Assembly: GCA_025352265.1 (NCBI GenBank)
Contig: JANXTS010000105.1
Coordinates: 1-64,000 of the forward strand
From: Variovorax sp.
Lineage (GTDB): Bacteria > Pseudomonadota > Gammaproteobacteria > Burkholderiales > Burkholderiaceae_C
DNA length: 64,000 bases
Direction of reading: 5' to 3'
Shown: positions 53,887 to 57,406 of the stretch, piece by piece
How the letters are laid out: each line of letters begins with the position of its first letter
Position numbering within the stretch: position 1 is the first letter of the stretch
The notes under the pieces: generated by a model
What the model was told of the DNA's origin: nothing
Database searches by the model: none
The model's input: only the letters and a program-made list of their open reading frames with translations
Program-made: the position numbers and the translations under genes

Positions 53887-54897
53887 ATGAGCATCCCTAC
53901 CACCCGACTCGGCCGCACCGGCCTCACCGTTTCGCGACTCGCGCTCGGCACCATGACCTTCGGCCTGCAGACCGATGAAGCGACGTCGTTTCGCATCCTC
54001 GACAAGGCGACCGAGGGCGGCATCAACTTTCTCGACACGGCAGACGTGTACCCGCTCGGCGGTACGGCCGAAACGGCAGGCCGCACGGAGGAAATCATCG
54101 GTCGCTGGCTGAACGCCAAGGGTGGCAGCCGTCGCAGCGAGTTCATTCTTGCGACCAAGGCGGCCAACAAGGTCGGACCCAATCCGTGGGATCAGGGCAA
54201 CTCGCGCAAGCACTTGCTAGACGCCATCGACCTTTCGCTGAAGCGCCTGCAGACCGACCACGTCGACCTGTACCAGCTGCATCACAACGACCCCCATACG
54301 CCGCTCGACGAAAGCCTCGAAGCGCTCGACACCATCGTGCGGTCGGGCCGCGCGCGCTACATCGGCGTGTCGAACTTTCTGGCCTACCGATTGGCGCGGG
54401 CCATCGGCCGCACCGAGCTGCACAAGCTCACCAAGCTGGTGTCGGTGCAGCCGCGCTACAGCCTGTTGTTTCGCGAGATCGAACGCGAGTTGCTGCCGTT
54501 GGCGGACGAAGACGGCATCGGCGTCATTCCATACAACCCGCTGGCCGGCGGCATGCTCACCGGAAAATACAAGCCAGGTTCGAAGCCCGAAGACCAGACG
54601 CGGTTCACGCTCGGCACGGCCGGCGCGATGTACCAGGACCGCTATTGGAACGATCGGAGCTTCGCGACGATCGCGCAGCTGCACGCGTTGGCCGACGAGG
54701 CCGGCGTGCCGCTGGCGACACTGTCTGTTGCGTGGGTCATGGCGAACCCGCTCATCACTGCTCCGTTGCTCGGCGCCAGTCGCCCGGAGCAACTAGACGC
54801 CACGCTGGCCGCTGCCGAATACAAGCTTGACCCTGCGCTGAAGCTGAAACTCGACGAGCTGACCGCCGAATACCGCAAGGGCGATGCGCCGCGTTGA
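53887..54897 (+). CDS. Aldo/keto reductase
   Basis: An NADPH-dependent oxidoreductase of 336 residues with a TIM-barrel fold. The catalytic residues are recognisable in NFLDTADVYPLGGT (Asp and Tyr), FILATKAANK (Lys) and VDLYQLHHNDP (His). Cofactor-binding segments are VQPRYSLL, IPYNPLAGGMLTGKY and ITAPLLGASRPEQLDATLAAAE. It resembles the YajO/Tas-like aldo/keto reductases. The substrate is unknown. The CheB remnant follows 55 bp later. Confidence 0.88.
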   Translation: MSIPTTRLGRTGLTVSRLALGTMTFGLQTDEATSFRILDKATEGGINFLDTADVYPLGGTAETAGRTEEIIGRWLNAKGGSRRSEFILATKAANKVGPNPWDQGNSRKHLLDAIDLSLKRLQTDHVDLYQLHHNDPHTPLDESLEALDTIVRSGRARYIGVSNFLAYRLARAIGRTELHKLTKLVSVQPRYSLLFREIERELLPLADEDGIGVIPYNPLAGGMLTGKYKPGSKPEDQTRFTLGTAGAMYQDRYWNDRSFATIAQLHALADEAGVPLATLSVAWVMANPLITAPLLGASRPEQLDATLAAAEYKLDPALKLKLDELTAEYRKGDAPR

Positions 54898-54951
54898 CAC
54901 AGCGATGCCAAGCCGGAACAAATAACGGCGTTCTCCTTCGCGGGAACCAAC

Positions 54952-55474
54952 ATGTCAGTCGGTCGTGATCTCATCGTGATCGGCGGTTCAATGGGCGGTT
55001 TGAGCGCACTGTGCCGCTTCGTGGTGCCTTTGGCCGCCAACTTTCCCGCGGCCATCGTCGTTACGATCTACAACGGACCGGCCGCAGGCTCCAACACCGA
55101 CGAGAGCGCACAGCTGCCTGCCATCGTGGGCCAGCACACGCGATTGCCGGTGCTCGATGCGGTCGATGGCGAGGAGTTTCATCCTGGCACCATCTATCTG
55201 GCGCCCCAGGGTCATCACCTCGTCGTCCTGCCCACCGGCCGCAGCTTACGGGCGCCGCGTCATCGGCATCGTGCAAAGCCCGTCGGATGCAACCGCGCGC
55301 GGCATGCCGACAAGTGCCTTGTTGTCCAACCACACTGACTTTTGCGTGCTGCTCGACGAGATGCCAAAACTGCTGATGTCACTGGTGAGCGCGACCAGCG
55401 TCGATGGCGTCAACACCATCGGCTTCAGCGTGGCGCCCTCCGCACTGCCCGATTCGATCAAAGAGGCCGCATAG
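54952..55474 (+). pseudogene. CheB-type protein methylesterase remnant (internal deletion and frameshift)
   Basis: The first frame (54952-55338) starts RDLIVIGGSMGGLSALCRFV, the CheB nucleophile region, and runs to FHPGTIYLAPQGHHLVVLPTGRS. Here it leaves the family pattern. A second frame, entered near 55245-55260, reads RRVIGIVQSPSDATARGMPTSALLSNHTDFCVLLDEMPKLL, which is the C-terminal part of CheB methylesterases. The segment between them, including the MG-DG region with the catalytic aspartate, is missing. So about 50-60 codons are lost and the frame changes. It was probably a stand-alone CheB_methylest-domain protein. No other chemotaxis gene is present. Confidence 0.75.
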
Positions 55475-55522
55475 TCTCGACGCTGACAATCACGCTCATC
55501 AATCTGTTTCGGAAAGACAAAA

Positions 55523-56206
55523 ATGCCCGACACCCTGCTTGGCGGTTTGCGGATCCTGATAACGCAGGCGGACGACTTCATGGGGCCGACGTTGTGCGAA
55601 GTCCTGGCCGAGCACGGTGCGGACGTCATCGCGAGTCGGGAATCACTGATCGACCCGACCGCGCCCGCCGCAGTCGTCACGGCTGCCGGACGTGTCGATG
55701 TGTTGATCGCGAATCTGGCCGTTCCGGCACCGTCCACGGAAGTGGTTTCCATCAGCGACGATGAATGGCGCGCTACTTTTGCAGCGCTCGTCGATCCGCT
55801 GCCGCGGCTGGTGCGGGCCGTGTTGCCTTCGATGATTGAGCGCAAGTCGGGACGCATTCTCGTCATGGGCAGCGCGACGGCCTTGCGCGGAATGCGCCGC
55901 ACGGCGACGTACGGCGCGGCCCGTGCGGCCCAGATCGGGTACGTCCTGAGTGCGGCCCTCGAGGCTGCTCAGCACAACGTGCAGATCAACGCGATCGCCC
56001 AGAATTTCGTGGAGAACCCGACGTACTACTCGGTCGAGGTCCAGGCCAAGCCACGCTTTCAAGAGTTCATGAAGCGTGAGGTGCCGCTCGGCAGACTCGT
56101 CAGCGCGAGGGAGGACGCCGAGTTCGCCGCTTACCTGTGCAGCAAAGCGGCAGCGTGCTTCGTTGGCCAGGTATTTCCCGTTGCCGGGGGGTGGGCGATT
56201 CGATGA
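55523..56206 (+). CDS. Halohydrin dehalogenase-like SDR protein
   Basis: A 227-residue short-chain dehydrogenase/reductase fold protein. The normal NAD(P) loop (TGxxxGxG) is replaced by ITQADDFMGP, matching T-X4-F-X-G with T14, F19 and G21. The catalytic set is S117, Y130 and R134 in SATALRGMRRTATYGAAR, matching S-X12-Y-X3-R, where ordinary SDRs have Lys. These two motifs together define halohydrin dehalogenases (HheA-G), which turn vicinal halohydrins into epoxides without cofactor. NAIAQNFVENPTYYS and GQVFPVAGGWAIR fit that family's halide pocket and C terminus. Length (227) also fits. Alternatives: a divergent SDR of other function. It has a GGAAAG ribosome-binding site and no obvious operon partner. 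Confidence 0.72.
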   Translation: MPDTLLGGLRILITQADDFMGPTLCEVLAEHGADVIASRESLIDPTAPAAVVTAAGRVDVLIANLAVPAPSTEVVSISDDEWRATFAALVDPLPRLVRAVLPSMIERKSGRILVMGSATALRGMRRTATYGAARAAQIGYVLSAALEAAQHNVQINAIAQNFVENPTYYSVEVQAKPRFQEFMKREVPLGRLVSAREDAEFAAYLCSKAAACFVGQVFPVAGGWAIR

Positions 56207-56389
56207 CGCGCTGTCCCGATGCCATCGGGTCGCCCAGCTCGGGACCGAAGCCGAGGCCGCGGTGGCTGCCGCAGCAGTAAGCAATTTCCTTCGCGCTGAA
56301 CGTTTTTGGCTTCTGCCGCAAAATCGTCTTGCAATGAAGTGCGTCTTGTTCCTCCTCGGTCGCAGCAGCGCGCGGGCGCAGGAGTAGCC

Positions 56390-57406
56390 ATGGCGCAACT
56401 GATGACTCTGATGATCGAGAACGCGCTCGGCTTGATCTTCGCGGTCAGCCTGGCAGCCCGCCTAGGCCTTCCGGTGCCTGCCGCGCCGGTACTGGTGGTG
56501 GCCGGCGCACTGGTGTCCATCGGCCAAGTGTCGCTGCCTGGCGTGTTGCTTGCCGCGGTGCTCGGTAACCTGATTGGCGACGGTGCCTGGTTCTATGCGG
56601 GTCGACGCTACGGCCATCGCTTCATGCGGCTGCTGTGCCGTATCTCTCTATCGCCGGACTCTTGCGTGCGCCGCAGCGAATTGCTCATCACGCGCTGGGG
56701 CGGCTTGTCGTTGCTGGCAGCTAAATTCGTGCCTGGCGTGTCGGTCGTGGCACCACCGATGGCTGGTGCGCTTGGCATGTCGTCGCTGCGTTTCTTGCTG
56801 TTTGAAGTTGGCGCGGCATTGGCCTGGGCCGGGGTGTTCCTTGGTTTGGGCTACGCCTTCCGCGACAGCGTGCAGGGCGTGCTGAACGGGTTGGCCGACG
56901 CGGGCGGTGTCGCGACTCTGGCGGTCGTGGGCGCGGTGCTCGCAACGCTGGCCGTCCGCTTCTGGCGGAGGCGGCGCTTCATGCAGCTGACCCGCATGCC
57001 GCGCATCTCGGTGGATGAGTTGTATGACTTGATGGGCACAGCAACGCCACCGCTGGTGATCGACGTGCGTGGCAATGCGAGCATCCGGATCGATCCGCGC
57101 CGCATTCCCGGTGCACTGCCGCTGAGCCTCAAGGACATTCAGCATCGTCGCAGGGCGAACGTCTTCGATGGCGCTCGCGATGTGGTGCTCTATTGCGATT
57201 GTCCGAATGACGTATCGGCTGCCCTGGCGGCCGGTGCACTGGCCGCGCAAGGCGTGGTGCGCGCGCGCCCATTGGCGGGCGGACTCGATGCGTGGGTGGC
57301 GGCAGGTCTACCGATGTCATTGCACACGACGGCAACGGTGCGACGCAGGGCCGGTGCGCCCGACGCCACCGCAGACGCCACTGTCTTGCCCGGCATCAAT
57401 CTCTGA
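56390..57406 (+). CDS. DedA-family membrane protein fused to a rhodanese domain
   Basis: A 338-residue two-domain protein. The N-terminal 200 residues are a DedA/VTT membrane domain (GLPVPAAPVLVVAGALV, LGNLIGDGAWFYAGRRYG, FVPGVSVVAPPMAGALGMSSLRFLLFEVGAALAWAGVFLGLGY), a family thought to scramble or flip lipids. After a helix and basic linker (RFWRRRRFMQLTRMPRIS), a rhodanese-like domain (about 220-310) shows PPLVIDVRGNASIRIDPRRIPGALPL and the loop VVLYCDCPNDVSAA, with cysteines at the active-site position. GGAG precedes the ATG at 56390; the track's earlier start is unsupported. Rhodanese activity is not assured, and the role of the fusion is unknown. Confidence 0.87.
   Translation: MAQLMTLMIENALGLIFAVSLAARLGLPVPAAPVLVVAGALVSIGQVSLPGVLLAAVLGNLIGDGAWFYAGRRYGHRFMRLLCRISLSPDSCVRRSELLITRWGGLSLLAAKFVPGVSVVAPPMAGALGMSSLRFLLFEVGAALAWAGVFLGLGYAFRDSVQGVLNGLADAGGVATLAVVGAVLATLAVRFWRRRRFMQLTRMPRISVDELYDLMGTATPPLVIDVRGNASIRIDPRRIPGALPLSLKDIQHRRRANVFDGARDVVLYCDCPNDVSAALAAGALAAQGVVRARPLAGGLDAWVAAGLPMSLHTTATVRRRAGAPDATADATVLPGINL

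Follow-up and report, generated by a model that had tools for sequence, protein, structure and literature searches.

Organization of the locus

The window, a 64,000-nucleotide stretch of a Variovorax sp. contig, carries on its forward strand an uninterrupted frame (55523-56206) that opens with ATG and encodes a 227-amino-acid product, flanked on one side by a gene remnant and on the other by a gene shared with congeners. The features on which the analysis draws are the following.

53887-54897, + strand: aldo/keto reductase (Pfam; 80-89% identical in congeners), the left conserved flank of the insertion spot
54952-55474, + strand: broken CheB-like methylesterase remnant directly upstream of hheD (Pfam CheB_methylest, first half only)
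55523-56206, + strand: predicted hheD-type halohydrin dehalogenase (HHDH) gene, 227 amino acids (open frame; 64% identity to HheD2, PDB 7b73; tree)
55562-55585, + strand: motif 1, T14-Q-A-D-D-F19-M-G21, the nucleophile-pocket loop that replaces the SDR TGxxxGxG NAD(P) loop (residues and conservation)
55871-55924, + strand: motif 2, S117-X12-Y130-X3-R134, the predicted catalytic triad (residues and conservation)
56000-56032, + strand: pocket segment QNFVENPTYYS, residues 160-170, equivalent to QNFVDNPTYFP of HheD2 (alignments)
56390-57406, + strand: VTT-domain/rhodanese membrane protein, the right conserved flank (Pfam; adjoins the aldo/keto reductase in congeners G004 and G011)

The gene order is MFS transporter, Band 7 protein, aldo/keto reductase, broken CheB-like gene, hheD and VTT/rhodanese protein, followed by an MFS transporter, a DUF938 methyltransferase and, on the other strand, KatG; none of these listed neighbours of hheD is a dehalogenation partner. 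The CheB remnant has its N-terminal part in one frame and a C-terminal-like part in another, and is missing between the flanking genes of congeners. It is not part of the enzyme and marks the locus as disturbed. The right flank encodes a DedA/VTT membrane domain fused to a rhodanese domain and is matched in all 15 sampled congeners as well as in some other families of the order.

Signature motifs of the hheD product

An earlier note on this DNA, made from the sequence, had reported T14-X4-F19-X-G21 together with S117-X12-Y130-X3-R134, and all six residues indeed occupy these positions. The two motifs constitute the published HHDH signature (defined in PMC4989007 and PMC11976700). When the protein's own composition was shuffled 20,000 times, motif 1 arose in 3.8% of the sequences and motif 2 in 1.8%, with both present in 0.115%; more telling than these frequencies, both motifs lie at homologous positions of the SDR fold. 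Conservation among close homologues is nearly complete, with T14 and F19 each in 100/100, G21 in 100/101, and S117, Y130 and R134 each in 101/101. By comparison, neither motif occurs in any of seven further SDR loci taken from this genome, each of which keeps S-X(10-14)-Y-X3-K and six of which keep the TGxxxGxG loop. The shuffle frequency and the motif-free SDRs of the same genome thus indicate that the motif pair is genuine and matches the register of the SDR fold; read at their proper positions, the published motifs tell the HHDH apart from the seven SDRs compared with it.

Classical SDR features are correspondingly absent: TQADDFMG stands in place of the TGxxxGxG loop and YGAAR in place of YxxxK, and the position of the SDR Asn-Asn-Ala-Gly element reads A63-N64-L65-A66. 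The proposed resemblance of NFVENPTYYS to an HHDH pocket segment was borne out by its alignment with NFVxNPTYFP of HheD2 and HheD8, with Y169 and S170 replacing the usual F and P; by alignment, residues 160-170 correspond to the halide/epoxide pocket segment of HheC.

Assignment to the D subtype

Several lines of analysis converge on the same family. A sequence search of solved structures returned HheD2 first (7b73, E 9e-95), HheD8 second (8xxb, E 5e-84) and HheB next (E 2e-50), with FabG-type reductases and NAD(P)-dependent SDRs far below. HheD2 of the gamma-proteobacterium HTCC2207 is equal in length to the window protein and 64% identical over 224 residues; it shares both motifs and the pocket segment, in which it has TYFP against TYYS, and the window protein differs from it further by A135, A145 and F182. 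HheD8, solved as an engineered triple mutant with chloride, has both motifs and is the second-best entry in sequence and in fold, although at 60% identity it is more divergent overall. HheD12 of Halopseudomonas pelagia CL-AP6 (L087; locus named after PMC6922532) is 61% identical and belongs to the same clade, of which it forms a separate branch. HheB of Corynebacterium sp. N-1074 (PDB 4zd6), similar in length and 43-45% identical, has both motifs with Tyr where the window protein has Phe, and lies outside the D clade that contains the window protein.

Phylogeny, which the earlier note had named as a check that could refute its proposal of HHDH identity, placed the protein inside the HHDH clade and within the D subtype. 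In a maximum-likelihood tree of HheA2, HheB, HheC, HheG, 6a41, SDRs of the same genome and 47 homologues, without E- and F-type sequences, it falls within a 41-row clade (support 98/99) that holds HheD2, HheD8 and the HheD12 locus, and five SDRs of its own genome are set apart from its side at 100/99. The HheA2, HheC and HheG references were confirmed by identity to their PDB copies. The long HheA, HheC and HheG branches make the order among subtypes unsure, with the D placement unaffected. HheD19-38 are reported to share 57-95% identity with verified D enzymes (PMC4989007); the window protein groups with HheD2 and HheD12, and its 64% identity to HheD2 lies within this range.

The AlphaFold model (pLDDT 87.5, pTM 0.88, with residues 119-123, beside the active site, poorly predicted) retrieved with Foldseek four 7b73 chains first (TM 0.92), HheD8 fifth and then HheB, with NADP-bound FabG below; the entry names identify 7b73 as HheD2 and 8xxb as engineered HheD8 with chloride. 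At the cofactor site, the loop is devoid of the NAD(P) glycine pattern and the predicted fold matches HheD2 and HheB. The same motif pair previously guided the choice of 37 novel genes, a diverse set of 19 of which proved to have HHDH activity (PMC4989007). Taken together, the motifs, structure-database matches, tree and fold model strongly suggest that the window protein is a D-subtype HHDH (HheD), with a probability of about 0.92.

Distribution and probable gain of hheD

The description of HHDHs as a small group, given in the earlier note, is out of date, since D-type genes are widespread in Pseudomonadota and the series HheD to HheD38 has already been catalogued in a review (PMC4989007). 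In a contig scan of one genome per species, the best 80 of at least 445 loci share 61-74% identity with the window protein, and these 80 come mostly from Pseudomonadota, with some from Thermodesulfobacteriota and one from a Gemmatimonadota bin. Within the order, matches at E 1e-60 or better occur in 22 of 300 sampled genomes, a count that includes the genome of the window itself. The window protein is therefore a further sequence within a known subtype, neither rare nor a new kind of enzyme: a biocatalytically useful family gains one more D-type member, correctly predicted and under-annotated, and knowledge of that family is left unchanged.

Counting the window's own copy (L001), 105 homologues score above 150 bits, and both motifs, searched as regular expressions, occur in 100 of them. 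The five exceptions are a locus cut by a contig end (L047), a D-type homologue (L097) and a Cys variant found in three congeners (L010-L012). The L097 gene (1441-2178) reads THAGHFIA at motif 1, with Ala for Gly (F-I-A for F-M-G), and has an otherwise intact catalytic triad, which makes it a naturally occurring variant at the third position of that motif.

Close copies (60% or more) were found in 0 of 24 sampled congeners, and no plasmid-borne close copy was found in the plasmid collection at E 1e-40. The interval between the aldo/keto reductase and the VTT gene, 1.5 kb in the window (54898-56389) and made up of the CheB remnant and hheD, measures about 40 bp in congeners G004 and G011; in G007, G009 and G014 it is occupied by about 8.4-8.8 kb of other DNA with similarity to neither hheD nor CheB. 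This stretch is a variable spot in the genus. Because the flanks are directly adjacent in two congeners and a broken CheB-like gene adjoins hheD, a recent gain of hheD is likely. The gene may instead have been lost in other congeners; the simplest reading is nonetheless that this lineage acquired it at a variable position, and the gene appears to stand alone. The GC content does not stand out.

Genomic context was also surveyed across the 105 loci containing homologues, by clustering open reading frames of at least 110 amino acids by similarity. Apart from spurious frames overlapping hheD, neighbour groups are mostly confined to single lineages, such as an acetyltransferase and RadA in SAR92/Porticoccaceae and a photolyase in some Thauera-type loci. 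An operon or pathway context for hheD was accordingly discarded, the groups representing ordinary synteny within lineages, with no functional partner found among the 105 loci.

Putative mechanism and cellular role

The mechanism that best fits the window protein is inferred to be the cofactor-free Ser/Tyr/Arg dehalogenation and epoxide ring opening described for HHDHs (PMC4989007). By analogy with the chemistry of HheC and HheD2, Arg134 would lower the pKa of Tyr130, Ser117 would hold the oxygen of a vicinal haloalcohol, and Tyr130, acting as the base, would take its proton. The substrate oxygen would then displace the halide to yield the epoxide, the halide leaving into a pocket whose walls are presumably formed by the 14-21 loop together with the 160-170 segment. 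In the reverse direction, Tyr130 would protonate an epoxide under ring-opening attack by halide, azide, cyanide or nitrite.

Whether such chemistry would serve xenobiotic dehalogenation is a separate matter. A folded HHDH handling endogenous epoxides, or catalysing another anion-dependent reaction, is a credible though less probable alternative, and the genomic surroundings are compatible with it: no dehalogenation or epoxide hydrolase gene lies beside hheD, the single EHN-type epoxide hydrolase that the genome was found to encode lies on a different contig, and D-type genes occur in many marine and soil bacteria, with no neighbours common to different lineages. The review likewise leaves room for other physiological functions of HHDHs (PMC4989007). 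Against this stands the lack of positive evidence for any particular alternative substrate.

Lineage-specific residues

Compared with 101 close homologues, the window protein is alone in having A135 (Gly in the others) and F182 (Arg in the others) and nearly alone in having S170 (Pro or Gly in the others) and A145 (Gly in the others); Y169 in place of Phe is shared with 10 others. With A135, A145, F182 and S170 at positions that are otherwise invariant or nearly so in the D type, the activity or range of the enzyme may differ from that of its relatives. A more specific proposal, in which these four residues and Y169, around the active site, have shifted substrate range or selectivity towards an unrecognised natural epoxide or halohydrin, is unlikely.

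The same substitutions at otherwise invariant positions could mark a D-type copy that is inactive or in decay within a disturbed locus, as could the broken CheB-like gene directly upstream and the sigma-70 promoter scan near hheD, which yielded nothing, albeit with a simple pattern that makes for a weak test. Such decay is quite improbable in a gene that keeps a full-length open frame, the six signature residues, most of the pocket and a predicted fold of high confidence.

Annotation of the hheD product

All 25 NCBIfam models listed for the protein are FabG/SDR models that score far under their cut-offs, and Pfam returns adh_short families only. These resources recognise no more than the SDR superfamily, so a pipeline could well name the protein just an SDR, in line with what the earlier note had guessed. 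That the protein is in fact a FabG-like NAD(P)-dependent SDR oxidoreductase bearing both motifs by chance, as these names taken at face value would have it, is hardly credible, given that the best FabG model reaches 98.7 of 222 bits with every FabG model far under its cut-off, that the glycine loop and the catalytic Lys are both lost while 7/7 SDRs of the same genome keep Tyr-X3-Lys and 6/7 keep TGxxxGxG, and that tree and structure group the protein with HheD.

A divergent Cys variant in congeners

Three congeners (G005, G008 and G015; L010-L012) carry an HHDH-like relative that is 49% identical to the window protein, at the following loci.

L138:4724-7867: gene string with the HHDH-like Cys variant (G005)
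L139:4794-5534: HHDH-like Cys-variant gene (G008)
L012: HHDH-like Cys-variant locus (G015)

Motif 1 of this variant reads T-Q-A-D-E-C-C-G, with Cys at the aromatic position, and motif 2 reads S-X13-Y-X3-R, with 13 residues rather than 12 between Ser and Tyr; in the tree it branches outside the B and D types. The variant thus fails both strict motifs and is not to be filed as an HHDH on sequence alone: it may represent an HHDH whose anion pocket is altered, or its activity may be a different one. It was found in none of 300 genomes sampled from the order, a loose bound on its spread, as the carrier congeners apparently lie outside that sample.

In G005 the L138 string runs ABC-transporter ATPase, alpha/beta hydrolase, SDR and HHDH-like gene, with neighbouring frames sharing a few bases (start codons assigned by eye). 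As of 2016, only two known HHDH genes had been reported to share an operon with an epoxide hydrolase gene (PMC4989007), and the Cys-variant string therefore deserves a look of its own; as a lead it may be worth more than the window gene. Its hydrolase matches the isobutylene epoxide hydrolase 9c2g (E 2e-58) and the soluble epoxide hydrolase 1ehy (E 3e-53).
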